32,620 nucleotides of DNA from NCBI GenBank assembly GCA_949751835.1, contig CATKHK010000173.1:1-32620 (forward strand), read 5' to 3'. The notes beneath the pieces are model-generated. The model did no database searches. It had not been told where the DNA came from and worked only from the letters and a program-made list of their open reading frames with translations. The DNA is from Blepharisma japonicum (taxonomy: Eukaryota; Ciliophora; Heterotrichea; Heterotrichida; Blepharismidae). The translations under genes and the position numbers were made by a program. Positions 1 to 32,502 of this stretch are shown piece after piece. Numbering within the stretch: position 1 is the first letter of the stretch; each line of letters opens with the position of its first letter.

Positions 1-408
1 ATGGGCAACAGTCCAGATAAAATTGAGAAAAAATTATACTTAAAAGGATTTAAAGGAAAATTTGAAGTAATTTTAAGAAAATTAATTAGAAAAATAACAC
101 ATGCTCCCAAATGATGTCCAATCCCTCCCTTACACATAGTTACTAAAATACCATCTTGTCAGCTAATCCTTCGAGAAATTAAATTAAATAGGATAAAAGA
201 AATCTGAAAGAATAGTATAAATAACAAATTAGATGAGAGAGATAAAGAACTACTGAAAAATCAACTTATAAAAAACTCTAAGCAACTAATTCAATCATTT
301 TCATTGGCTAGTTTGTGAAATAACGAACCAGATTGAACAATGATTAAAATTCAAGAAAGGACTCAATTTTGAGATGAAATAATTAAGATATTAGTTTTTC
401 AAAACTAA
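1..408 (+). CDS. Uncharacterised open frame at left edge (possibly 5'-partial)
   Basis: Frame 1 is open from base 1 to a TAA at 406-408 if TGA is read as Trp (first TGA at 112-114), giving 135 residues from an ATG at base 1. That ATG may be internal, because the window starts there. The product is basic and lysine/isoleucine rich, begins MGNSP and ends in a Trp-containing helix-like stretch (WDEIIKILVFQN). I recognise no family. The last codons and the 3' flank (about 381-490) recur degenerately at about 6768-6886, so this may itself be part of a decaying repeat family. The main support is the uninterrupted frame across several TGA codons in AT-rich DNA. Confidence 0.4.
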
Positions 409-1319
409 CTTTGATAAATGCTAAAAAATAAATACGATTTGAAAAATAGCAATCAACATAAAGCTGCTACAGCATAAAAACCTTCACCCTTAAATTAATA
501 AGGGTAAATGTTTTATTCTGTCTTTTAAGATAGTATGAATGTTTTTAGCTATTATTTCAAGTTGCATAAATTTTCCATTAACCTCTAGCAAGCGGCTATA
601 ATTGATATTCCATTTGCTCTTCAATCAATTTTTTATTAAAATTATTGCTGAAGTCTAAATGCTTGAATCAGCAATAAAGTGGCAGCCATTCTAGTGATGG
701 CTTAGGTGCCAAGATGAAACTTTACATTTTGGTAAACTGCAAAATTAACATCTTGCAATTACCCTTATAAAATGCACGCTGTATACCCAACTTAGAGAGT
801 AAGTTTTTGCTTTAAAGCCATTTTATAATATCAAAAAGGGATGGAAAAACCCTTGCTAATTTTTTCTTTCTTTACCCTTTACCACTGATTTGCCCTGATT
901 ATAGCTTAGAAATGCATTAAAAATATTAAATTAATCTTTTATTTAAATTATCACTCATTGAAATTCAAGTTTAAGAAGATCACGAGCTGTATTTAGACAG
1001 CTATAAAGCTAAGATAATAATAATAATAATAATAATAATAACTCATTGAAATTCAAAGAAAAGTATATTTATAGTTTTATCTGATTTCAAGACAATGCTC
1101 TTTAATTATAAGTATTAATACATGCGCTTAAACATTATATTTATCATTATGATCAATCGCGCGTATGAATTTAAGGAATTTCAAAAAAATTTAAAAAACG
1201 AAGCTTTTTTCTTGATGAAATTATGTGTAATGATTAAAATGTTCAGAATAATTGCTAGCATTGGTTCTTTTGATGAAATAACCCTTTTAATATTCATATT
1301 ATATACATAATTAATAATA
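409..1319. other. AT-rich stretch without convincing gene
   Basis: No credible coding frame on either strand with UGA=Trp. It holds the 3' part of repeat E, an AAT microsatellite, and from about 1100 the 5' part of repeat A. In that part an open stretch at about 1122-1310 looks like a decayed N-terminal extension of the repeat-A ORF, with stops in both copies. Two short copies of ACTCATTGAAATTCAA lie near 953 and 1041. Confidence 0.5.
1013..1041. repeat. AAT microsatellite
   Basis: About nine tandem copies of a TAA/AAT trinucleotide, seen directly. It lies between two short copies of an ACTCATTGAAATTCAA motif, just 5' of repeat A copy 1. Confidence 0.9.
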
Positions 1320-1850
1320 ATGAAATATCCAATTAAGGAGACCCCAAAACCAGTGTTAAAGTATAGAAATTTAGAATGAGATCTGTATGTTAAAGTTACT
1401 GCAGCATTACGAGATGGAGAATTTGATGAAGTAGAACGTTTAATGAAAAAGTACAACCAAAGCAATGTCCAGAGATTCATTGAGGGGAATATTGAATCAT
1501 TTTTTCCAACTGCCATGCTCGCACGTAATATTGAATCAATCAATTTTATCATCAAACATGTAAAAAAGGACTTGCTGATGAAAACTATTGAAAAAGACGA
1601 AAGAAAAAGATTGAGTCGATTTATAAATGTTATTTTTCCTATGACTGAAGAGCAAAATGTGCGCGAAATAAGGAGAGAAATATTGATTAAGCTAGCAGAA
1701 TTAGATGATGAACTAGGCAAATTTATATACAGCGTTGGCCATGAAATTTTCAATAATTAAATTTATATTTTAGGCAAGTGCTTTAATTATGGATTAATAA
1801 TGACTCTAAAAATAAATAATTGCCTTCTAATATTTATTGCAAAGAATTAT
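1100..1850 (+). repeat. Repeat A, copy 1
   Basis: Closely matches about 4890-5630 in direct orientation; most positions are identical by eye, with scattered substitutions and single-base indels. It contains the ORF at 1320-1760 and a decayed upstream coding-like part. The match continues past the ORF stop into a shared 3' flank (starting near GACTCTAAAAATAAATAATTG) and then ends. Copy 1 runs on into an inverted receptor-gene fragment, while copy 2 runs into unrelated sequence. Confidence 0.85.
1320..1760 (+). CDS. Repeat-A ORF, copy 1 (uncharacterised helical protein)
   Basis: Reading TGA (1377-1379) as Trp, the frame is open from ATG 1320 to TAA 1758-1760, giving 146 residues. The sequence is mostly amphipathic and helix-like, with an ankyrin-like cadence early on (AALRDGEFDEVERLMKKYN, then a stretch around TAMLARNIESINFII). 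I cannot assign a family. A second copy at 5101-5540 has a 1-nt deletion and is broken. In both copies the region upstream looks like a decayed N-terminal continuation, so even copy 1 may be a truncated remnant of a longer gene. A 190-codon frame on the opposite strand is a shadow. Confidence 0.45.
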
Positions 1851-1861
1851 AATTATCTGAA

Positions 1862-2202
1862 TAAGGCCTGCTGAAACAGAAATATATTCTAAAAATTCAA
1901 AATACTCCAGGGAGTAAACAGCGTCTATAAATACTGCGACGCCTGCGTTAGAAAAAGATGAAAGAACTTGATAAGGGCTTAGGCCTTCAACAAAAGAGTA
2001 ATCTATACTTCTAATTTGAAGTCGAGGCTGAATAAGAGTTGTAAAGTATTTTCAATTTCAAGCTGGAGGCCAACAATATTTGAAATAAGTACCGAGAGAA
2101 AGCTTAAGTCAGTGTTGGACGAGCAGACTAACCAAATAGGCAGGACTAGGTCTACTGCAAACTTATAAGTGCTAAAAAATTGAACCAGCATTTTCTTTAG
2201 AC
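1862..2202 (-). pseudogene. Inverted fragment of the receptor gene 5' end
   Basis: Its reverse complement matches about 9909-10250, the 5' flank and first ~110 codons of the large receptor gene. The open part on the minus strand begins MLVQFF..., shares SSNTD, then SNIVGLQLEI and NTLQL with the parent, but carries substitutions and later breaks. It is a truncated duplicate about 7.7 kb from its parent and in opposite orientation, placed exactly between repeats A and C of copy 1. Copy 2 of the repeat complex does not have it. It cannot encode a working receptor. Confidence 0.85.
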
Positions 2203-2365
2203 AAAAATGCATGCTTGCACATGCTTGTACTGTAGTTGCATACTTTAAGCAGTTAGAAACTTATGAAAGAACTGGAATTTGTAGATACTGGCTTATTAAT
2301 GTTAAGACTTTTATTTAGTTTTTAACATATATTTCATCATATATTAAGGTTTTAATAATTAAATA
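2203..2365 (+). repeat. Repeat C, copy 1
   Basis: About 160 bp starting AAAAATGCATGCTTGCACATG and ending near an ATATTAAGG motif. It is nearly identical to about 5987-6140 in direct orientation. No coding potential seen. Confidence 0.85.
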
Positions 2366-2439
2366 TGGGAGTTCGAATTTTCTTTAAAAGTTGAAATTAC
2401 TATACTAAATAAAGGTTAAATTGGAATTATATCCTATAA

Positions 2440-3160
2440 TTTTGGAATCTAAATGCTTAATTAAAGTCAGCAGACTAAAACACCAAAAATTAATTTCCAA
2501 TATTAGCTATATTAATGTTGACTCCTATTTCTCCTGAACCTATTTCTAAAAAATCGATCAATTTAATTTAATTAACCGAGTTGAAAGGCGAAATATAAGT
2601 TAAATTGATAAAGATTATATTTAATAAGATAGCAGCTGAAATCGTAAAACTAATTGCATTAACTAATATTAGCCACTTTATTGGAAAATCAAAATGCATA
2701 TCAAGAATCAAATTAAAAAGGGTGATTATTGTATATTTATCTTGCCTAAGAATCTACAAGAAATAAGAAGGGATTTGAATATGCTTTTGCAATTAGACCT
2801 TAAAAGAATCTAAAAAATTGACATGTTAAGAGACTAAGGCTATAGCAGCTATTGCGATTTATTGTGAATTGTAGATGAAATAATTTTTGTAATAGAAAAT
2901 GTAAATAGCTTATTTTACACTGATCATTAGCTAAGATAAGCATTATAAAGTTATTTTAAACTCACATTTTGTTATGTTTCCATCTATAAAAAAGTTAATT
3001 ATTCTTTAAAATATAAATTAATTTGCAATAAAAATATAGTTTGAAGACAAATATGCGTGGGTATTAAAAAAATATAGCTAGTTTTTTTTTATAGCTGTTC
3101 TTTAAGTTCTTCAAAGTCCATTTATACAAATAAAAAAATGTTTTAAACCATATAAAAATT
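2440..3160 (+). repeat. Repeat D, copy 1
   Basis: Direct repeat of about 4035-4760, with many substitutions and small indels; shared landmarks include CCTATTTCTAAAAAATC, a TTGTATATTTATCTTG block and AATCTACAAGAAATAAGAAG. Fragments of coding-like sequence (such as APISKKSINLNNW in copy 2) are interrupted by TAA/TAG, suggesting an old duplicated gene now decayed. The two D copies flank the J-domain gene. Confidence 0.75.
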
Positions 3161-3302
3161 AATCTCAAATAAAATCAATCCAAATGCAATTACAAACTAA
3201 TTTGGGATTCTTAAAATTAAGTACATTTTATAATAAACATACTTATTATTGACCATCATTTTATATGAAAAAGAAAAGGATTGATATTAGCTTAAATAGT
3301 CA

Positions 3303-3926
3303 TTAATTCCACATGCCATGGGCTTTTCTGTATGAGACTATGACGATATAACTGACTCCGACGTTGGTAAATTTTTGGTGTGCATCTTCTTCGCGGCCAT
3401 GATTTTTATCAGGATGGTACTTAAAAAGCAAGCGCTTCCTTTGGGCTTCAACCTCAGCATTGTTTGATTTCTCTTTCAGCTCAAATACTTTCAATGCATC
3501 TATATAAGCCCCATATTTGTATTCCTGGGTATCCTCCTCTCTTATAGATAGCTCAGTTGACTTGGATTGTATATATCTTCCAGCTGCATAGCCTGCACAT
3601 CCCCCAACAGCAGCCCCTACAACAGTTCCTATACCAGGAAAAATTAAGGTGCCAATTATTGATCCAATACCCATTCCTGAGAGAGTACACACCCTTGTAC
3701 TTTTCCTCCCTATTCTTCTTAGGCATTCTCTTCCAGTAATATTCCCGCATATCCATCTTGCCATATCTTCTACACACTCCAATAGGTCCATGATAAAATT
3801 ATTGCCCGTTGGATCTTTAAGGCAAAGATCACTGCTAGATTTAATATTAGCTATTTTTCATGTATCAGCAATCATATCTCCACTGAATTCCAGCTTTCTA
3901 ATTTTAGAATTTGGGCTACTTCCCAT
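3303..3926 (-). CDS. Glycine-zipper membrane protein with C-terminal J domain
   Basis: 207 residues, using ATG at 3924-3926 (product begins MGSSPNSK) and one TGA-Trp at 3858-3860 (residue 23). A shorter form could start at ATG 3789-3791. Residues ~83-117 are a hydrophobic, glycine-rich zipper (GxxxG repeats such as GIGTVVGAAVGGCAGYAAG) expected to insert in or associate with a membrane. Residues ~138-190 resemble J-domain helices I-III with an intact HPD (171-173), so an Hsp70 co-chaperone role at a membrane is plausible. The C-terminus is short and lacks a clear helix IV. The N-terminal MGSS could be a myristoylation site, though Asn at position 6 is a poor match. It is the only clearly intact gene between the repeat copies. 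Confidence 0.75.
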
Positions 3927-4034
3927 GATATATATTATAATAGGCCTTATTAAAACAAACCATCTATAAAAAATGAAGGAAATTTTAAATTTATTTAAAA
4001 GATTTTTTGAGAGTATTTGCGATAATTTTAAGAT

Positions 4035-4760
4035 ATAAATTCTTAAAGCCAGCAGAATAAGACCAAAATTAATTTCGATATTAGCTATATATAATGGCAC
4101 CTGCACCTATTTCTAAAAAATCAATCAATTTAAATAACTGAATTGAAAAGCTAAATATGAGCTAAATTGATAAAGATATATTTTAGAAGAAATCAGTTTA
4201 AATAAGAGCTAATTGCATTAGCTAATATTGGCAACCTTATTGAAAAATTAAAGAGCCTATCAGAATCAAATTAAAAAGGGTGAATTATTGTATATTTATC
4301 TTGTCTAAGAATCTACAAGAAATAAGAAGGGTTTGAATCTGCTTTTGCAATTAGATCTTATAAGAATCAAAAAGCTAGCAATTATGCATGATACTAAGAA
4401 ATCGAAGCTATAAAAGCTATTGCGATTTATTATTAAATTGTAGATAGAATAGTTTTTATATTAGAAAATAAAAATAGCTCATTCTATACTGATTATTAGC
4501 TAAGATAATTATTTTTATCTATTTTAAACTTACCTTTACTTATGTCTACATCTATAAAAAAGCTAATTATTCTTTAAAATATATTGAATTAATTTTCAAT
4601 AAAAATATAGTTTCGAGACAAATCTGAGAGAGTATGAAAAAAATATAAAGTAGTTTTTGCAGCTGTTCTTTAAGCCGCCAAAGTGGCAAACATTCATTTT
4701 TTATATAAAAAGCACAAATAAAAAAAAATTGCTTTAAACCATAACGCAAAATTCTCAGGT
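4035..4760 (+). repeat. Repeat D, copy 2
   Basis: Second direct copy of 2440-3160. A short frame from ATG 4095 (MAPAPISKKS...) is soon interrupted by TAG/TAA, so no gene is called. It is followed by repeat A copy 2, giving the order D-A-C here, whereas the first set reads A-C-D. Confidence 0.75.
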
Positions 4761-4889
4761 CAAACTTAGTCATTTCAAATGAAAAGATGTCTATAGAAAT
4801 ATATAATAATAGGTAATAAAATGCGTGCCCAAATCTATTTATTAAGATTTTACTAGTGAAAAATGCAATTTCAAAACAATCGTTCTTTA

Positions 4890-5630
4890 CATTATAAGTA
4901 TTAATGCATGCGCTAAATATTTATTATTATGATCAATAACGCGTATGAATTTAAGGAATTTCAAAAAAATTTAGAAAGACGAAGCTTTTTACTTGATGAA
5001 ATTATGTATAATGATTAAAATGTTCTGAATAATTGCGAGCATTGATTCTTTTGATAGAATAACCCTTTTAATAGTTATATTGAATAAATAATTAATAATC
5101 ATGAAATATCCAATCAAGCAGACCCCAAAACCAGTGTTGAAGTATAGAAATTTAGAATGAGATCTCCATGTTAAAGTTACTGGAGCATTATGAAACGGAA
5201 AATTTGATGAAGTAGAATGTTTAATGAAAAAGTACAACCAAAGGAATGTCCAGAGATTCATTGAGAGGAATATTGAATCATTTTGCCAATTGCCATGCTT
5301 GCACATCATACTGAATCAATCAATTTTATCATCAGACATGTAAAAAAGGACTTGCTGATGAAAACTATTGAAAAAGACGAAAGAAAAGAATTGAGTCAAT
5401 TTATAAATGTTATTTTTCCTATGACTGAAGAACAAAATGTGCGCGAAATAAGAAGAGAAATATTGATTAAGCTTGCAGAGTTTGATGATGAACTAGGCAA
5501 ATTTATATACAGCGTTGGCCATGCTATTTTCAATAATTAAATTTATAATTTTAGGTAAGTGCTTTTAATTATGAATCAATAATGACTCTAAAAATGAATA
5601 ATTGGCTTCTAATATTTACTGCTAAGTGTT
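4890..5630 (+). repeat. Repeat A, copy 2
   Basis: Direct copy of 1100-1850; it contains the frameshifted ORF at 5101-5540. The upstream coding-like part reads better here (AYEFKEFQKNLERRSFLLDE) but hits a TAA soon after. Confidence 0.85.
5101..5540 (+). pseudogene. Repeat-A ORF, copy 2 (frameshifted)
   Basis: Starts with the same MKYPIK as copy 1 and keeps the TGA-Trp (5158-5160). A one-base deletion near 5284 (a shortened T run compared with copy 1) shifts the frame. The remainder is open in the new frame from 5283 to the TAA at 5538-5540. This is a recent-looking pseudogene, or a sequencing error in a homopolymer. Confidence 0.7.
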
Positions 5631-5760
5631 TAAGTCCTCTTCTTTCCAAAACCTCCAAATCATTTTTTATTTTATTGCAGAAGTCACTAAGCTGTTCGTT
5701 TAGTGAAAGTGATGCTAAGCTACAAGTAGAATTACCAATTATCTCCAAAGCTCCCTGCAT
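5569..5760 (-). CDS. Short uncharacterised ORF
   Basis: 63 codons, leucine/serine rich and helix-like (SLNEQLSDFCNKIKNDLEVL). Its 3' end overlaps the shared 3' flank of repeat A, while the 5' two-thirds is unique to copy 2. No family recognised. It may be a gene fragment or a chance frame. Confidence 0.25.
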   Translation of the reverse strand: MQGALEIIGNSTCSLASLSLNEQLSDFCNKIKNDLEVLERRGLKHLAVNIRSQLFIFRVIIDS

Positions 5761-5986
5761 TTAAAATGAGTTTTTAGGAAATTTGAAAAAAAAGCACCAG
5801 AGTAGGATGATTCAGCATAATAGAAATTAAAGCAAGACTTCTAAAGGACAGTATATGGTATCCAAGGATAGAATTGAGGGAAAATGCATATAGCCTAATA
5901 TGAGTATGAACTGGGCTCGTACACATGGAGTGACTCAGAAATTATCATACAAACTTTTCTGTGTGTCTATACAGCTCATGCCAAAC

Positions 5987-6140
5987 AAAAATGCATGCGT
6001 GCACATGCTTGCACTATAATTGCATACTTTAAGCAGTAAGAAACTTATGAAGGAACTGGAATTTGCAGATACTGGCTTATTAATTTTAAGACTTTTATTT
6101 AGTTTTTAACATATATTTCATTATATATTAAGGTGTTAAT
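5987..6140 (+). repeat. Repeat C, copy 2
   Basis: Near-identical direct copy of 2203-2365, starting AAAAATGCATGCGTGCACATG. Sequence on both sides differs from copy 1. Confidence 0.85.
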
Positions 6141-6259
6141 AATTAATTTGGTGTTAGAAAATTTAAAAATGTCTGCCAGAGATCTTTGAATTATTAATGT
6201 TGTGCTCTTTCCGAGAAAAATGATTAATAGATCAATATTATTTCTAATTAATTTTTAAA

Positions 6260-6550
6260 TATTAAGACATTCTATTGATATAAACTTTATATTTTGAAGT
6301 TTGAAGAAGCACGATGCTGATAAATGTGCTTTTTCCGCAGAGATTAAAACATTCTATTGATTGAAAATTTATCTTTTTGAAGTTTAAATAAATATGTCTT
6401 ACTTAGACAGCGGGAAAATATATTTAGTACTTTTTAATGCATGTGCAATTTCCGTTAATCATTATTTATAAATTATTATCACCTCTATTTAATTCCTAAA
6501 TATTAAGACATTCTATAGATAGAAACTTTATATTTTGAAGTTTAAAGAAA
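6260..6550 (+). repeat. Three dispersed copies of a ~45-bp motif
   Basis: Copies at about 6261-6308, 6341-6390 and 6500-6550 share ATTAAGACATTCTATTGAT followed by a T-rich stretch ending TTTTGAAGTTTAAAGAA. The spacing is irregular (about 80 and 160 bp). No coding role seen. Confidence 0.75.
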
Positions 6551-6767
6551 TATGGCTTCTTAGAGGAAAAGTGTTTAGCACAATGCAAGAAAAATAGCAT
6601 TGCTCTGAGCACGATTTTATATAGAGCAATAATTAGGGATTTTCGATGTAAAGAGTTTACCGGAATTTCTTGAAGTGTTTTCGATAGCAGATTTTGCTGA
6701 TAAATTATAGATATTGAAGTCTGTTATACTTCTTGTGTAAAAATATGTTCATAGTATTCAAGGGAAT

Positions 6768-6886
6768 AATTAAGTATATGAGTTTTCAAAACTATCTTTG
6801 TTGAATGTGAAAATAAAATACGATTTTGAAAAATGGCTTAAGCAAACATAATGCTACTCAAAAGACAGCATAAAAACCCATCACCC
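6768..6886 (+). repeat. Repeat E, copy 2 (matches 381-490)
   Basis: Degenerate direct copy of the last codons and 3' flank of the first open frame. Shared landmarks are AATTAAG, TTTTCAAAACTA, ATACGATTTTGAAAAAT and CAGCATAAAAACC. It lies next to the dynein-like fragment. Confidence 0.7.
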
Positions 6887-6930
6887 ACAAAATAATTAAA
6901 ATAAAATTAACAGTTTTGTATTTTATTTCA

Positions 6931-7086
6931 GAAAAAATTGTTTCCAAATTTTCATCAAAATATCTTAGTGAATGAATCTACACTATAACAAACTATGCTC
7001 AAGTATCAAGAGAAGTGGAGCCTAAACAAAAAAGATTAGAAGAATTCAATAAAACACTCACAATAATCCATCACAAATTTATCTAA
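6931..7086 (+). pseudogene. Dynein heavy chain fragment (start of stalk coiled coil)
   Basis: About 51 codons in frame, with TGA at 6973-6975 read as Trp, give SEWIYTITNYAQVSREVEPK followed by QKRLEE. This resembles the segment before the dynein heavy-chain stalk (typically LxxWVxxIxxYxxVxxxVxPKRxxL). It stops at TAA 7084-7086; downstream sequence in other frames has further weak coiled-coil-like residues. The full gene would be about 4000 codons, so this is only a relic. Confidence 0.55.
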
Positions 7087-7820
7087 ATCTTAGGATAGAT
7101 TTAGAGTATAATAAGAAAAGTTGCAGGGCTGAAAGTCAATTAAATGAATACTAGATAAACAAATTAGTCTTGATAATCAAATTCAAACAACGAATATATA
7201 TCTAGGTCTTCCTATCCTACTTTTAAATCTATCAAACTTATTCGTTGCAAAGTCTATTAAGATATAACCCTATTATGTTTTCCATTTTAAAATAGATTTA
7301 CCAATAGGTGGATTTCATAATTCGTCTACCTAAAATGAGTAGACAATCATAGAAATTCTCCCATCAAAATAATTAACAAATCTTTGGCTTATGTGGATCA
7401 TTCCAAATTAATTTGCTATTTTCATGGATACTTTTATTTTCGAGTTTCATTAATTATAGCTGATTGTGCCCTTTTTTGCTATAATTCAAATGATTAGGTG
7501 CAAAGCTGTAAATGTCGAGATACTGGCAAGTAAGATGACATAGGCTAATAGTATGCGACATAGAAAGTCTTTTAGAATTTGAATTCAGTTCATACTCCAT
7601 TTCTTTATCATCTTCTTTAGGAATTTCATTAAATAAATTATTTACTTCTTATGAAAATTTTCCTAGAATTTTTATTTCTTTTATTAGCTGACACAAAGGA
7701 TTTATAATTCATAATAATTAAATTTAATAATTGGGAGGTTTTTTAATCAAAATTTAAATAGATATAATTAGAAATTATGACAAGATATTAAAAGTCTCTA
7801 CTTCTAAGTTGGTGTTCTAT
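7087..7820. other. No intact gene; decayed coding-like sequence on the minus strand
   Basis: On the minus strand around 7390-7690 one frame reads as plausible protein (NEIPKEDDKEMEYELNSNSK, later KLIWNDPHKPKIC) but is cut by several TAA codons. Further minus-strand coding-like pieces lie at about 7190-7290. I could not identify the parent gene. Confidence 0.35.
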
Positions 7821-8185
7821 ATGTCTTCGAAAACGACTTTTGCTAAGGCGACTTGAGTGGCTTCTACTTCTATCAACTATAAGTCCATAGTAATTATAAA
7901 ATTTCTATGAACTGAAGTTATTGCCTCTTATATTTATTATTCATAAGTTCAATCTTGCGTATAGATCTTTATCAATGCCAAATTGGATTAATGCATCGAG
8001 CAATACAGTGTCCCAAAAAAGAAAGGATTCATATGGTTTTATTGCTTGACATGCCTGAGGAGGATAGAGGCCAAACGCGACCCATAAAAAATCCTGGCCC
8101 TTTTGGTTGGTTTTCAGGAATGCTAACTAGACAATTTGACTGCTGACATCATAATTGGGGGTTAAAAGGGTTAGCTTCGGTCTAA
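7821..8185 (+). pseudogene. Possible two-part gene remnant, unknown
   Basis: A frame from ATG 7821 (MSSKTTFAKATW..., TGA read as Trp) ends at TAA 7944-7946. A second frame, with ATG at 7991, runs to TAA 8183-8185 with TGA-Trp at 8144-8146 and contains NPGPFGWFSGMLTRQFDC. The GC content is higher than the flanks. No standard 15-nt intron joins the two parts, so I treat this as a remnant or a wrongly delimited small gene. No family recognised. Confidence 0.25.
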
Positions 8186-17671: not shown

Positions 17672-18259
17672 ATGAGTCGACAGTGTTTGAGCCGTTTGCA
17701 TAAAGAATATGAAATGATCATGAAAGACCCTATTCCTAACGCAATTGCATGTCCAGATCCTCAAAACTGACTGCATTGGCACTTTGTTGTGTTCGGATTG
17801 GACAATCCCTATACAAATGGAGTCTACCACTGTGAGCTTAGATTTCCAATTGATTACCCAATGGCTCCTCCTTCAATTATCATGCACACTCCAAGTGGGC
17901 GATTTGACCCTGGCCAAAGAATTTGTACTTCTATGTCTGACTATCATCCAGAGTCTTGGAGTCCTATATGGAGCGTAAGCACAATAATCATGGGCTTTAT
18001 AAGCTTTATGCAAAGTGAAGAAAATGCTGCTGGCACAGTTTCTGCTTCCAATATCGAAAAACAAAGGCTGGCTAATCTGAGTAAAGATTTTAACATGAAA
18101 TGTCCGAAGTTTGTAGAGCTTTTTGAGCCTTTTTTTGAGAAAATAATGCCTAAAGAGACGGTTGTAGAGCCTCCTGCTGTTAAAGAAAAAAGTGGGCCGA
18201 ATTGGTTTTTCTTAGGGATGCTCTTAATGATAATAGTAGGATACTACTCTTATAGTTAA
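17672..18259 (+). CDS. UBE2J2: Tail-anchored ubiquitin-conjugating enzyme E2 (UBC6/UBE2J type)
   Basis: 195 residues; the start ATG 17672-17674 gives the family N-terminus (CLSRLHKEYEMIMKDP), and TGA 17768-17770 encodes a Trp. The catalytic Cys is C85 in RICTSMSDYHPESWSPIW, followed by SVSTIIMGFISFM, typical of the UBC6/UBE2J subfamily rather than canonical HPN-type E2s. A C-terminal hydrophobic segment (~177-195, WFFLGMLLMIIVGYY) is a tail anchor. The known role is ER-associated degradation with ER-membrane E3 ligases. The next gene, SepSecS, starts only 26 bp after the stop codon. The RING-CH/FHA gene at 29215-30678 could be an E3, but no link between them is shown. Confidence 0.93.
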
Positions 18260-18285: not shown

Positions 18286-19686
18286 ATGGATAGCAGAAAT
18301 CTCCAATTAGCAAAAGAAATTATAGGAAAGACTCTGGGGCAGTCAGGAGAAGATGTAAAGGATATATAGTCGCTTAATAGTCTTGTGAAGGAACTGAGAA
18401 TATTGCTGTCTCAAAAGAAATTGCCAAAAGAACCATGGACTGATTTAATGATGCAAAGCGTCCTTACAGACTTAGCTATGATGGATTCTAATAATTTTAC
18501 TTCAAGAGCTGGAGTGGGGGAAAGAGAAGGAAGAGTTTTCTCTTCAATTGTCCAGCAGAGACACTTTTATTTTTCACATGGAATTGGGAGATCAGGAGAA
18601 ATTTCAGCTATTCAGCCTAAAGCTGCAGGGTCAAGCTTAATGGCGATTCTTACTAATAATTTTGCCAAACATGCATTGAAAATTTCTGGGATAAGAAAAG
18701 TTGACTGTATGGTTGTGCCAATGGCTACTGGGATGTCTATATCATTGGTACTGCTTGCGCTAAAGCCTCAGAGACCGGTATTAGTAACTTAGCAAGCTAA
18801 ATATGTGGTGTGAACAAGAATTGACCAAAAGACTTGCTTAAAATGCATATATACGATTGGGTTGCAAGCAATAGTGGTAGAGCCAGAATTAAAAGGAGAC
18901 GCAATAGTGACTGGAGACGTCCTTAATTCTATTGAGAGTGTTCCTATTGATGAAATCTTGTGCGTTTTGTCAACAACTAGCTGTTTTGCTCCCAGGGAGC
19001 CAGATGATGTAGAGAGAATTTCAATTATTTGCAAAGAAAAAGGGATTCCTCACGTTATTAATAATGCATATGGACTTCAATGCCACAAAATCTGTGAAAA
19101 AATATCAAACTCAATAAGAAATGGAAGAGTTGATGCTATTGTACAAAGTACAGACAAAAATTTTATGGTTCCTGTTGGAGGAGCAGTGATTGCTTGTCCG
19201 AGCTCTGAATTTCTTAAAAATATATCATCAACTTATCCAGGCCGCGCATCCGGTGCTCCAATTCTGGATCTTTTTGTGACCTTTTTATCTATGGGTGAAA
19301 CAGGGTATCAAAGAATTCTTAGAGAAAGAAGATCATTAGTTCAAACATTCAAGCAAAGACTTCAGGATTTTGCTCATTCATTCGGCGAAAGGCTATTGGA
19401 ATCACCAAATAATACAATTTCATTTGCTGTTTCCCTAGACCATTTTCCTAATCCAACATCAATAGGCTCTTCGCTGTTTTTAAGGAGAGTGTCAGGAACT
19501 CGAGTAATTACTCCCGAGTCAAATAAATCAGTGTGCGGAATTTCCTTCAACAGTTATGGGGCAAGCTATAGCAATTATCCTGCAGCTTATATAACAGCTG
19601 CTTGTGCTGTTGGACTATCACTACGAGAAATCGATCTATTTTTTGAGCGTTTATCTCAAGTCTTAAGAGATTCGAGAACAAACTAG
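18286..19686 (+). CDS. SEPSECS: O-phosphoseryl-tRNA(Sec) selenium transferase (SepSecS)
   Basis: 456 residues after removing two 15-nt introns (18355-18369 and 18778-18792). This PLP enzyme converts phosphoseryl-tRNA(Sec) to selenocysteinyl-tRNA(Sec), the last step of eukaryotic Sec synthesis. Family motifs are intact: DSNNFTSRAGVGEREGRV, GIGRSGEISAIQPKAAGSS (~94-112), VPMATGMS, RIDQKTCLKC, STTSCFAPREPD, INNAYGLQ, and the PLP lysine K281 in STDKNFMVPVGGA, then YPGRASGAP. TGA 18811-18813 encodes W166 in KYVVWTRIDQK, where the family has Trp. Stop is TAG. It is slightly shorter than the human enzyme. A decayed copy of its 3' end lies just downstream. Confidence 0.95.
18355..18369 (+). other. 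15-nt intron 1 of SepSecS
   Basis: GTAAAGGATATATAG, phase 0, between Asp23 and Ser24. Removal restores the frame interrupted by the TAG that forms the intron's own 3' end. A at position 10. Confidence 0.9.
18778..18792 (+). other. 15-nt intron 2 of SepSecS
   Basis: GTATTAGTAACTTAG, phase 0. Removal joins KPQRP to QAKYVVW, matching the contiguous conserved segment of the family. If retained, the terminal TAG stops translation. A at position 10. Confidence 0.95.
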
Positions 19687-20557
19687 GAGGAAAATAATTT
19701 TAATCTAATTAGGCCAATCTTAATAACTAAACATTGGTATCGAGTATAGTCGTGATAATAAATTCTTAAGTGCTTATTACTGCTTTATTCATCTCTTATT
19801 CATTTAGTTAAATAAATTAATTTGTGGAATTTCCTTCAATAATTATGAAACGAGCTTAAGCAATTATCCTGTATCATATATAACAGCATATATCGAATTA
19901 TTTTTAAGCGCTTGTCACATGTTTTGAGAGAATTAAGAAATATTGAGACGGATTACTTTATAATTTATAATGGAAAATAATTATTAAGTGAATAAGCCGA
20001 GCAAAGCAATAAGCAACTATTCATTTAATTGGTGAATAGAATAGAGCCCTTTATTCAGCAATTTTTGAGACTCTAAACAAGAAATTAACAGAGATCGGAT
20101 ATATATTCACGCACTCATTTTAGTCTGTATATTATCAATTATAATATAAGATGATAGTATTCTGTCGAATTTGAAAAGGAAACTATCAAGTTTGTTGATG
20201 ATAAGTTTAAGGATGCTAAAGAAGACATGTCCCATCATAAAACAGAAATTAATCAAGTCAAAACCAAGAATAGGTAAGTTTAAACAAATGCATTATTAAT
20301 AAGTTCAATGAGAAAATGAAGAACGAATGAACTGAAAAGAAAATCATTGTGTAAAAATGTATGTTCCATGCAATTTCTGGAAAAACCATTGAGCCTATGA
20401 AGGGCTAGATGAAATTTAAACTCTTAATGAAATATTTTATTTAATTTAGAAATTTTATTACCATTATGAACTATTTCTGATTGATTATGAAAATCAATCA
20501 AAATACCTATGATCAAAATGGCTTTTCAAAAAATATAAAGATTGTTATAAATTAATT
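19687..20557. other. Intergenic, with decayed coding-like sequence
   Basis: Apart from the SepSecS 3' fragment, a frame at about 20158-20277 reads VEFEKETIKFVDDKFKDAKE and ends in TAA after 39 codons with no good start, so it is probably a relic. Nothing else convincing on either strand. Confidence 0.4.
19801..19950 (+). pseudogene. Decayed partial duplicate of the SepSecS 3' end
   Basis: Matches about 19518-19680 of SepSecS in direct orientation: TGTGGAATTTCCTTCAA, CAATTATCCTG, TATATAACAGC and AAGCGCTTGTC recur with substitutions and an internal loss of about 25 bases. The frame is broken by TAA. It is a tandem 3' partial duplicate about 115 bp after the parent's stop. Confidence 0.8.
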
Positions 20558-29214: not shown

Positions 29215-30678
29215 TTAAATCGCAGAGGTTTCGAATCTTTTTTCTTCGTTTTCGTCTTCCTCCTCGTCTGAAGAAATTGCAAGTTTTACCTCTTCCACTG
29301 AGTCGCCGCTTTCAGTGCCTTCTTCATCTTCATAGGAGCTATTTAATCCGAGCTGCTTGTGTTCAAATAAAACATTGTTGGTTCTGGAGTACTCATCGGG
29401 CTTGTGAGGGCATAAGCCAGCACTTTCAAGAAGATCATATGGATTGTCGACGCTTAAAGGGATTCCTGTATTATAAGGGAGTAGAGGAAGATTACCCTCA
29501 GGCTGAGGTGTTAGATAAGATTCAATCATAGTGCTTATAGGTCTGAAACAGGAAGGGATAATGCTAAATTGTTTTTTCATAGAAAAAGTAAGAAGCGATC
29601 GTCCAGCTTGTATGGTAACTTTATGAGCTAGCGAGATAGGGCGCTTTATTTGTATTAAAGTTCCAAATTTCCCCCCTGCATCTTCTAAATAAAAGTGCCC
29701 AGCAGCATAATTCAACATTGCATGGGTCCTTGACACAGATATATCTTGTGCCCTTAAGTCACATTCTTGGCTTCTTCCTATTTTTATTGAGCTTTTGCTG
29801 CACAAGCTCACAACGTGCAGACTCTTATTAGACGTTTTATCTTTACAAAGGCCTTCCAATATAATGTATTGCCCTGGCGGCTTAGGGATGTCCAAAAGCT
29901 CTATAACTTTTTGACCCAAAATAAATTTATATGGATACTCTTTTTTACATAAATCGCAACAAAGTTTTTTTCATACAAATGATACTGAACAGTCGCTATA
30001 TCTGCTAGTGATTTTTGATCTCAAGCACTGCTGTAGACATTTTATATGAATATATTTCATCGTACCATCACATTTACAAGGAGCTATTAGAGGGTTTTCG
30101 TCATCATTTGACTCACTTAAACAGATCCTGCAAGGCAGCTTATAAATTTTGGATGGCGGAGGTTCTTCACTGTGTTCGCTGCTTTGGTTTTGTGAAAGCA
30201 TATCAGACATACTAAATGTTTCAAGCCCAGGGACCACCGTTGAGCTTATTTCTTTAACCCTAAATTTCAATTTTCCTAGTTTTATTACATCGCCTTCCGC
30301 AAGTCTATAACCCTTAGCAGAATGGGAATTTTTGATTGCTCTTACAACAAGTCACATTTTCTCGAAATGATCTCTTCGAAGTTTTTTTCCATTTGCAGAA
30401 CTCACTGGGGTTATTGCAAAGTTTTCTGTTTATGAATTACTGTCAATAAGGTGGACTTTTAAAATATATTTCATTCCGCTTGTACCTGCAAGTGTACGAA
30501 AAGTTGGAGTAAACTCAAGATCGTCTCCATTTCTTATAAGAAAGCAAGGAGTTTCAGTCTTGATTAAGCTTTTGGAGACACTTTTTGAGTCATAGTCAAA
30601 GAGTTCGTTTGAATCTTTTTCCCATGTCAAAATGCTTGCTTGAATTCTGAGTTTTCATTACATTGCTTTAAAATTCAT
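29215..30678 (-). CDS. RING-CH + FHA domain protein (putative E3 ligase)
   Basis: 477 residues after removing introns 30647-30661 and 30426-30440; TGA-Trp at 30352-30354 and 29971-29973. Residues 1-135 may be an FHA-like beta region (RLAEGDVIKLGKLKFRV). A RING-CH (MARCH-type) finger spans 173-234: C173/C176, C191/C193, H201/C204 and C231/C234, with the conserved Trp226 encoded by TGA. An FHA domain (~286-357) follows, with GRS (291-293) and SRTH (306-309), the phospho-threonine-binding core. The tail is very acidic (ISSDEEEDENEEK). There is no membrane span, unlike typical MARCH E3s. It is inferred to ubiquitinate phospho-dependent partners. Confidence 0.85.
30426..30440 (-). other. 15-nt intron 2 of the RING-CH/FHA gene
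   Basis: On the minus strand GTAATTCATAAACAG, phase 1; splicing gives VHLIDKNFAITP. If retained, an in-frame TAA inside the intron stops translation. A at position 10. Confidence 0.85.
30647..30661 (-). other. 15-nt intron 1 of the RING-CH/FHA gene
   Basis: On the minus strand GTAATGAAAACTCAG, phase 2, after five codons plus two bases; splicing gives MNFKAIIQASILTWEKD. If retained, the TAA within the 5' splice site stops translation. A at position 10. It is supported by fit to the other introns and by supplying an ATG. Confidence 0.7.
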
Positions 30679-31043
30679 AAATTTATTTAATTATTTGATA
30701 TAATATAATTTTTAATTAAGATTTTGTTTTATAACTATGTATAGGTAAATCTCGTAGGGCTTTCATTTTACTTTCCTCAAAGATAAGGCAATCGCTATAA
30801 AGAAAAAATGAATATATTTCAAAATAGAAGGCCAAAGCCTTAATAATCTGAAGCAAGTGTTCATAGAAAAAAATTATTTATTCATAATTATCACTTGTCA
30901 CAATTTATAATTGCATGAATATTTACCCCGTAAAATTTAAAAGAATGTTTAAAACAAAAAATTAATTTTATTTAGTTATAATTTATAAGTACACTTCTTT
31001 CTTCGAACTTTTATTCGAATTTCTTTAAGAATTTTTATTTATT

Positions 31044-31650
31044 TATGAAAGATCTGCTAATGAGTTAATGAGTTTATATGAAAAAAATCCTGATATTTTG
31101 TTTTTTAAAGGGAATTCTTATTTTATTCTGGAAAATCAGCCTAAGAAAACAGTTTTTATGATGCCATCAAATTTTATCCAGACAGCAAAAATACCAAAGA
31201 AATTATTAGATTTAAAAAGAATTGTCAAATTTGAAAGATGAAGGGAATAAGCATTTCTAAGGATGTAAATTAAATACCTATTGACTGCTATACAGAAGCT
31301 TTGCCCATTAATCCAAAATGGCAAAAAATCGATATAGTGATACTTGCTAACCGAACAGCTTATAAAAATTTAGTAATAAAATGGCATACTGATAAAATGC
31401 AGATTCAGGAAAAAAAAGGCTGCAGAGTAAAAATTTAAAGATATTGAAGAGGCATGTATAGTTTTAAGTGATAAAAAAAGAAGGCAATATGATTTAGGAG
31501 GAATTTTAAAGGAATGCAACAAGGAATGCCAGAAGGGACACAATTGGATGTGGATCCAATAAATATTTCGACTTTTTCAGGGATAGCGCGGCATGATCTT
31601 TGGAAATAGAATTTTGAGGGAAAAAAGCTCAATATTTTGCAGGACCAAGA
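31044..31650 (+). pseudogene. DNAJC7-like (TPR + J domain) pseudogene
   Basis: Pieces in shifting frames match the TPR-J co-chaperone order. First comes SLYEKNPDILFFKGNSYFI, then YDAIKFYPDSKNTKEIIRFK, LKDEGNKHF, IDCYTEALPINPKWQKI and ILANRTAYKNL. A jump into the J domain follows with KWHTDK (HPD changed to HTD), KFKDIEEACIVLSDKKRRQY and DLGG. There are several frameshifts and TAA/TAG codons, and the later TPRs are missing, so this is a decayed gene, not a coding one. Confidence 0.8.
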
Positions 31651-32502
31651 GAAGGAGAATTTTATTCAGTTGGGTAAAGAGGAAACTATAAGTTTGACTT
31701 TCGAAAAGTAGTATTGTGAGAGATTATTATTGATTTAAAATCTTCGAATAAATAAGATATTTGGATATAAAATTTAAAATTATTAATCCGGTAAGAAATT
31801 ATATATTATTTAATTTTTTTTAGTAGCACCTAATCTTTTAATTATTCAGTAGCCAGATATATCCCAATAGATATATATATATACATTTACACAAATGTAT
31901 TCTTCAGATTTAGTCAATTTAATACTAAAATACTAGAGGAAAATTACTATTTCAAAAATAAGTAAAAAAAGTTATCTTCTGTTCATATAGGAGAGTTAAT
32001 GAGCATTCATTGATGTAAAGCTATTATATTAGATACATGAATTGATTCAGCTGTTAATTGCAGATTATATAAAAGAATATAATTATAGACCATCGTAAAA
32101 GCTAAATAAGAGTTTAAATGCAAATTAGATAGCGAGAATCTACAGCCACTAAAGAATGCATATTTTTTATATTTAGCATAAATTCATTTTGAAGTTAAAA
32201 ATAGCACTAAATTTTATTTTATAGTAAATTATGTTCAAACAAAATTAAAAATATTATTTATAAATATTACTCCATAAACTTTATATTATAAAATGAATTA
32301 GAATTTATTTGCTTTAGATAATTAATTTTATTTTTATCTTTAACAATTTCCTTCTTTAAACTTTATTAAGCCGATATTTTACTTATTTGTATATCTAAAC
32401 ATTTATATATTAAATTATATAAACAGAATATCATAAAGATTTTCAACTCAAGAACGTAAAGACAACTTTGATACCCCAGCAGAACTAAATAATCAGGGGG
32501 TG
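31651..32502. other. AT-rich spacer beside the rDNA
   Basis: Very AT-rich with a short TATATA tract near 31870-31885. No gene seen. It is presumably downstream spacer of the minus-strand rRNA unit. Confidence 0.5.

Follow-up and report, generated by a model that had tools for sequence, protein, structure and literature searches.

The SepSecS gene (O-phosphoseryl-tRNA(Sec) selenium transferase) of the ciliate Blepharisma japonicum very probably encodes a working step of the standard eukaryotic selenocysteine (Sec) pathway, in a genome in which UGA ordinarily specifies Trp and would specify Sec in mRNAs carrying a 3' SECIS, at least those of TrxR and one GPx. The gene lies on contig C173, a stretch of 32,620 nucleotides that was analysed as a whole (the window), and its partners were sought throughout the host assembly, which comprises 45.2 Mb in 224 contigs. 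A sequence-only reading of the window had offered three ways in which SepSecS and UGA as a Trp codon could coexist: a dual UGA, read as Trp and, by means of a SECIS, as Sec; Sec on another codon; or a vestigial pathway. A tRNA-Sec with the anticodon UCA, the Sec machinery and TGA codons at Sec sites together support the first of these. The genes, anticodons, Sec-site TGA codons and SECIS-like folds described below were read from the assembled sequence.

UGA as Trp and a complete SepSecS gene in the window

Ten ORFs of the window, delimited by TAA or TAG, were scanned with Pfam. Eight of them gave matches, and each of these eight contains at least one in-frame TGA (13 TGA and 35 TGG codons in total), which bears out the earlier claim that UGA is a Trp codon in many genes here. 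Because the ORFs were delimited in this way, their ending in TAA or TAG is no evidence on UGA as a stop. Counted over the longest open frames at 64 distinct loci, which are uncurated and include both Sec codons, TGA makes up about 29% of the Trp-type codons (67 of 230). The gene-dense middle of the window contrasts with its ends, positions 1-8000 and 30001-32000, where GC is low (0.27-0.30) and long open frames are few when UGA is read as Trp. No tRNA genes and no Rfam matches at gathering thresholds were found within the window.

The SepSecS frame matched PF05889 in the Pfam scan (431 bits, E 3.9e-129) and the NCBIfam model TIGR03531 (576 bits against a cut-off of 225), scores above curated cut-offs that identify it as a full-length SepSecS, and it also matched the PDB entry 3HL2 (E 1.5e-126). 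In the alignment to 3HL2, both the lysine of motif STDKNFMVPVGG and the loop HGIGRSGEISAIQPKAAGSS have matching motifs; we take the former to be the PLP lysine and the latter to be the phosphate-binding substrate loop. These results uphold the earlier view that the gene is complete, with PLP lysine and substrate loop. The same holds for the conserved Trp said to be written TGA: this codon, the sole TGA in the frame, is matched in 3HL2 by a Trp ('kyvvWtridqk' against 'kyiiWpridqk'). The positions of these features are given in Table 1.

Two in-frame TAG codons, on which the sequence-only reading is silent, occur in the SepSecS frame, each forming the end of a 15-nt GT..AG stretch. Judged from their sequence, both stretches are probably tiny introns, and their splicing would explain both TAG codons. 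Introns of Blepharisma stoltei, in which UGA likewise encodes Trp, are described as tiny and predominantly of 15 and 16 bp (PMC9942806). Just downstream of the gene lies a decayed partial copy of its 3' end (local alignment score 84; the highest score among 200 shuffles was 31), probably the leftover of a partial tandem duplication.

Table 1. SepSecS, its neighbour and associated features in the window
Feature	Position	Strand	Basis or remark
Ubiquitin-conjugating enzyme gene, neighbour of SepSecS	17672..18259	+	PF00179, E 5.6e-16; 1 TGA, 4 TGG
SepSecS gene	18286..19686	+	ATG to TAG; PF05889, TIGR03531, 3HL2
Putative intron 1, 15 nt GT..AG, phase 0, with in-frame TAG	18355..18369	+	sequence; upstream of the 3HL2-aligned part
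Putative intron 2, 15 nt GT..AG, with in-frame TAG	18778..18792	+	sequence; 5-residue insertion relative to 3HL2
TGA codon at the conserved Trp of SepSecS	18811..18813	+	alignment to Trp of 3HL2
Codon of the presumed PLP-binding lysine, motif STDKNFMVPVGG	19156..19158	+	aligned with 3HL2 'sldKnfmvpvgg'
Decayed partial copy of the SepSecS 3' end	19806..19887	+	matches 19517-19598

Transfer RNAs for Sec and Trp

The sequence-only reading had proposed a search for tRNA-Sec and its anticodon, and such a gene was found. Of the ten tRNA-Sec matches in the genome, one exceeded the Rfam cut-off (75.6 bits against 47), matching its model over the full length and carrying the anticodon TCA (UCA); the other nine fell below the cut-off, and the three that were checked (L002, L003 and L006) are tRNA-Ser. 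Since the sole tRNA-Sec over the cut-off has the anticodon TCA, Sec is assigned to UGA.

For tRNA-Trp, a genome-wide pattern with the anticodon TCA and up to two mismatches gave 15 matches, and ARAGORN was run on 10 of these loci. Six of the 15 are tRNA-Trp with the anticodon CCA, and the other nine are Arg, Cys or Phe tRNAs or repeats of the matched sequences; thus, tRNA-Trp(UCA) was found at none of the 15 pattern matches, a pattern that a more divergent copy could escape. In all six tRNA-Trp(CCA) genes found, A27.C43 is unpaired, leaving an anticodon stem of 4 bp. The bodies of the six genes (L037, L039 and L042-L045) are identical, and three of them lie within 4 kb on contig C47. In Blastocrithidia and Condylostoma, a 4-bp anticodon stem is reported to enable tRNA-Trp(CCA) to decode UGA, and a Blepharisma tRNA-Trp with such a stem has itself already been described (PMC13092985, PMC12005148). 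In ordinary mRNAs, UGA is thus probably read as Trp by this tRNA-Trp(CCA).

Sec-site and Trp-site TGA codons

The search for selenoproteins covered four families, GPx, TrxR, Rdx and MsrA. Within these four families, a TGA at the Sec site was found in two genes, one TrxR (L018) and one GPx (L014). The TrxR gene, which scored 657 bits and is the sole match over the cut-off among nine matches to the TrxR (TGR) family, has a single TGA in frame, located in a tail (...KTGC-TGA-GGC-TAG) that corresponds to the classical GCUG ending. Four of the nine matches were read to their ends (L018 to L021), and the other three of these end at an HPTASEE motif and are without the GCUG tail. Two of these three, L020 and L021, are neighbouring glutathione-reductase-like genes on contig C8, and the identity of their C-terminal stretch suggests a recent tandem duplication. 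In GPx, a TGA within the match was seen in one of eight cases (L014), where it occupies the catalytic site (VACE-U-GLT); all seven other GPx matches have Cys there.

The TGA codons of the two remaining families occupy Trp positions. One of the three MsrA matches (L066) has a TGA, at the Trp of GCFWG and with the Cys intact, as shown by comparison with L064 and L065. Among the eight Rdx matches, one (L028) has a TGA inside the match, at a position occupied by Trp in all six further copies that were read (L022-L025, L027 and L029); just upstream of the match, L028 has another TGA and L027 has one, and both correspond to Trp in L023 and L029. The partial Rdx match L026 was left out of this comparison. 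We therefore rejected the TGA-containing Rdx (SelW/SelT-like) and MsrA genes as selenoproteins, since their TGA codons fall on Trp positions of their paralogues. The Rdx-like (SelW-fold) N-terminal domain family (L022-L025 and L027-L029) comprises several copies, mostly in long proteins, with CxxC present in L022-L025 and apparently absent in L027-L029.

The Sec-site TGA codons of TrxR and GPx, set against the Trp-site TGA codons of MsrA and Rdx, therefore indicate that UGA has two meanings, depending on its position. All six Trp codons of the two selenoprotein genes are TGG. We considered whether this lack of UGA-Trp codons in TrxR and GPx is a sign of selection and do not claim it, because at a TGA share of about 29% it would arise by chance with a probability of about 0.13.

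SECIS-like elements

Selenoproteins with TGA at the Sec site and a SECIS downstream had also been named as something to look for, and TrxR L018 and GPx L014, both with SECIS-like folds, are candidates for such genes. Reading of their 3' flanks revealed SECIS-like stem-loops within about 30 nt of the two stop codons, with the quartets GUGA/UGAG in TrxR and GUGA/GGAG in GPx. In both elements, AA lies 11 nt past the 5' quartet, with pairing on both sides, and the TrxR element has an additional short third helix. The usual form of the SECIS 5' quartet is AUGA; both candidates open with GUGA instead.

A scan script was applied to 185 3' flanks, those following open frames no shorter than 150 codons in the retrieved loci and the window, with TrxR and GPx included and spurious frames kept. 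The TrxR and GPx elements ranked first and second, with scores of 29 and 28 (the third flank scored 26), and the observed scores were reached by 0 and 3 of 2,000 dinucleotide shuffles each; these statistics are partly post hoc, because the script was written with both candidates in view. When the quartets were held unpaired, the TrxR element folded weakly (-7.4 kcal/mol) and lost helix I, and the GPx element kept both helices (-10.9 kcal/mol). Across the whole genome, the Rfam model RF00031 (SECIS_1) gave a single match of 19.4 bits, below the cut-off, and did not detect the TrxR and GPx elements. This match (L009), located within the reading frame of a phosphatase-like gene, was dismissed as a chance hit. 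When all Rfam families were run on the TrxR, GPx and tRNA-Sec loci at E values up to 10, no SECIS model was listed on the TrxR and GPx loci. SECIS elements of ciliates have gone undetected elsewhere: a survey of ciliate GPx describes eleven Sec-GPx without a detectable SECIS (PMC7409322).

The distance from the UGA to the SECIS quartet is 379 nt in GPx and 33 nt in TrxR, the latter falling below the 51-111 nt rule. A short spacing was likewise noted for the TrxR of Condylostoma and Parduczia, in which the Sec codon is also very near the SECIS (PMC4967479).

Proteins of the Sec machinery

Of the proteins that the sequence-only reading had proposed to look for, eEFSec, SBP2 and SelD were found, all as intact open frames. 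eEFSec (L031, 509 aa) matches human eEFSec (5IZK, E 4.9e-135) and was recognized as such by the eukaryotic third- and fourth-domain families PF21208 and PF21131; on the selB model TIGR00475, it ranks first among 31 matches, at 234 bits just below the cut-off of 242. SBP2 (L063, 306 aa) has its best PDB match in human SBP2 from the Sec-insertion complex 7ZJW (E 4.2e-21), against an E value of only about 5e-4 for ribosomal L7a, and L063 is the weakest of the ten L7Ae-family matches in the genome. Its N-terminus contains a short motif, FNLDAPEFVPFNP, which to us resembles a PAM2 motif, through which poly(A)-binding protein is bound. Selenophosphate synthetase (SelD, L030) is the sole match in the genome (213 bits) and has the Cys form MKGCSCK, in which the Cys presumably sits where SPS2 proteins have Sec.

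The search for PSTK, also proposed earlier, yielded a divergent candidate, L053, which fell far short of the curated cut-offs. Its best PDB match, extending over almost all of L053 (residues 6-241, E 7e-8), is the archaeal PSTK 3A4L, which we take to be that of M. jannaschii, and on the PSTK models it scored 47.6 bits against a cut-off of 290.5 (TIGR03574) and 25.5 against 382 (TIGR03575). On both models it is outscored by L050, which headed the PSTK search but was rejected because it is KTI12 (PF08433, 255 bits). The assignment of L053 as PSTK, based on sequence similarity, is accordingly a weak one.

These genes bear on the possibility that the pathway is vestigial, with the machinery left over and the Sec-site UGA codons of TrxR and GPx now read as Trp. 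Such an account would suit the detection of only two candidate selenoproteins in the four families searched, the Cys form of SelD and the divergence of PSTK, but the intact, long open frames of eEFSec, SBP2 and SelD, a tRNA-Sec that matches its model over the full length, and the retention of TGA at the Sec sites together with SECIS-like elements speak against it. Moreover, neither TrxR nor GPx could carry out its known chemistry with Trp at the Sec site. We therefore regard a vestigial pathway as very unlikely.

Discussion

The observations fit a scheme in which UGA is read as Trp and as Sec by two different tRNAs. In ordinary mRNAs, UGA would be decoded as Trp by the near-cognate tRNA-Trp(CCA), whose anticodon stem is cut to 4 bp. 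For Sec, the route would be the established one, in which serine on tRNA-Sec is phosphorylated by PSTK (here the candidate L053) and the phosphorylated serine is converted to Sec by SepSecS, using selenophosphate from SelD. SBP2 would bind the 3' SECIS and bring eEFSec with the Sec-tRNA(UCA), and the same UGA would then be read as Sec; through SBP2, eEFSec would deliver the Sec-tRNA to ribosomes on SECIS mRNAs only. We infer from this that Sec is inserted in TrxR and GPx and that their SECIS-like elements are functional.

Two further accounts were considered. An origin of the window, or of the Sec genes, from a contaminant with another code is highly improbable, given that SepSecS itself has a TGA-encoded Trp and apparent 15-nt introns and that long frames with in-frame TGA adjoin the tRNA-Sec (L001), GPx (L014) and TrxR (L018) loci. 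The results the sequence-only reading had named as fatal to its proposal, namely a genome without tRNA-Sec, eEFSec or a selenoprotein, or a contaminant contig, are thus not those obtained. Sec on UAG or UAA, which could be entertained because UGA is a sense codon here and because Sec on codons other than UGA is known in bacteria, is scarcely conceivable, since the sole tRNA-Sec over the cut-off (one of ten matches) has the anticodon TCA, the lower-scoring matches L002, L003 and L006 are tRNA-Ser, and TrxR has TGA as its Sec codon followed by a TAG stop.

A dual UGA, our preferred reading, has precedents: UGA as both Trp and Sec has been published for Condylostoma and Parduczia (PMC4967479), the dinoflagellate Amoebophrya (PMC6394959) and Blastocrithidia (PMC12153298). 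Close parallels are the heterotrich Condylostoma magnum and the karyorelict Parduczia sp., in which UGA likewise encodes Trp and, with a SECIS, Sec; in C. magnum, as here, a tRNA-Sec(UCA) was found and a tRNA-Trp(UCA) was not. Unlike the situation considered here for Blepharisma, UGA is also a stop in these two ciliates, the only two named where PMC4967479 states this triality of UGA. In Amoebophrya sp. ex Karlodinium veneficum, UGA is Trp, a 4-bp-stem tRNA-Trp(CCA) is present and tRNA-Sec is the only UGA-cognate tRNA found, all as in Blepharisma; however, UAA and UAG mostly encode Gln there, SelT, SelM and SelO are the likely selenoproteins, and the 4-bp stem occurs in one of seven tRNA-Trp(CCA), compared with all six found here (PMC6394959, PMC12005148). 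The trypanosomatids Blastocrithidia spp. also read UGA as Trp with a 4-bp-stem tRNA-Trp(CCA) and as Sec with a tRNA-Sec(UCA), but differ in that UAR is Glu, that SelK, SelT and SelTryp are the selenoproteins reported, in place of TrxR and GPx, and that UGA stands for both amino acids inside one gene, SelTryp (PMC12153298, PMC13092985). Euplotes resembles Blepharisma in having one codon for two amino acids, which there are Cys and Sec on UGA, with Cys replacing Trp (Turanov et al. 2009, cited via PMC12153298 and PMC4695839).

Blepharisma is very probably a further case of an already published Trp/Sec duality of UGA, and a prior description is possible. According to its listing, the TrxR alignment in Fig. 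S2E of PMC4967479 contains an MMETSP1395 entry, labelled bjaponicum in the same paper; a row for Blepharisma TrxR has thus been published. In the portions compared of papers that mention Blepharisma together with selenocysteine, we found no published statement that Blepharisma uses Sec.

We suggest, tentatively and with somewhat more doubt than conviction, that UGA may no longer terminate translation in natural genes of Blepharisma. Sec insertion would then compete only with the near-cognate 4-bp-stem tRNA-Trp and not with a release factor, so that its failure would yield not a truncated product but a full-length protein in which Trp stands at the Sec position. A shortage of Se would accordingly lead to complete TrxR and GPx chains with Trp at that position, selenoprotein mRNAs would escape decay triggered by UGA, and the Sec system would be uncoupled from termination, its SECIS working 33 nt behind the UGA. 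The literature on UGA as a stop in Blepharisma is divided. According to one review, Blepharisma eRF1 recognizes UAR only (PMC4695839), whereas Eliseev 2011, as cited in PMC4967479 and PMC6879139, has B. japonicum eRF1 recognizing all three stops, and even the standard code in use there; of the UGA stops predicted for B. japonicum, PMC4967479 accepted none as genuine.

With dual decoding as the explanation, SepSecS in a genome that reads UGA as Trp is expected rather than anomalous, and the puzzle posed by its presence disappears. Blepharisma offers a near-complete case, at the level of genes, of a single codon that serves for both Trp and Sec in a culturable ciliate. If UGA is not a stop in Blepharisma, Sec insertion could be studied there without termination as a competitor.
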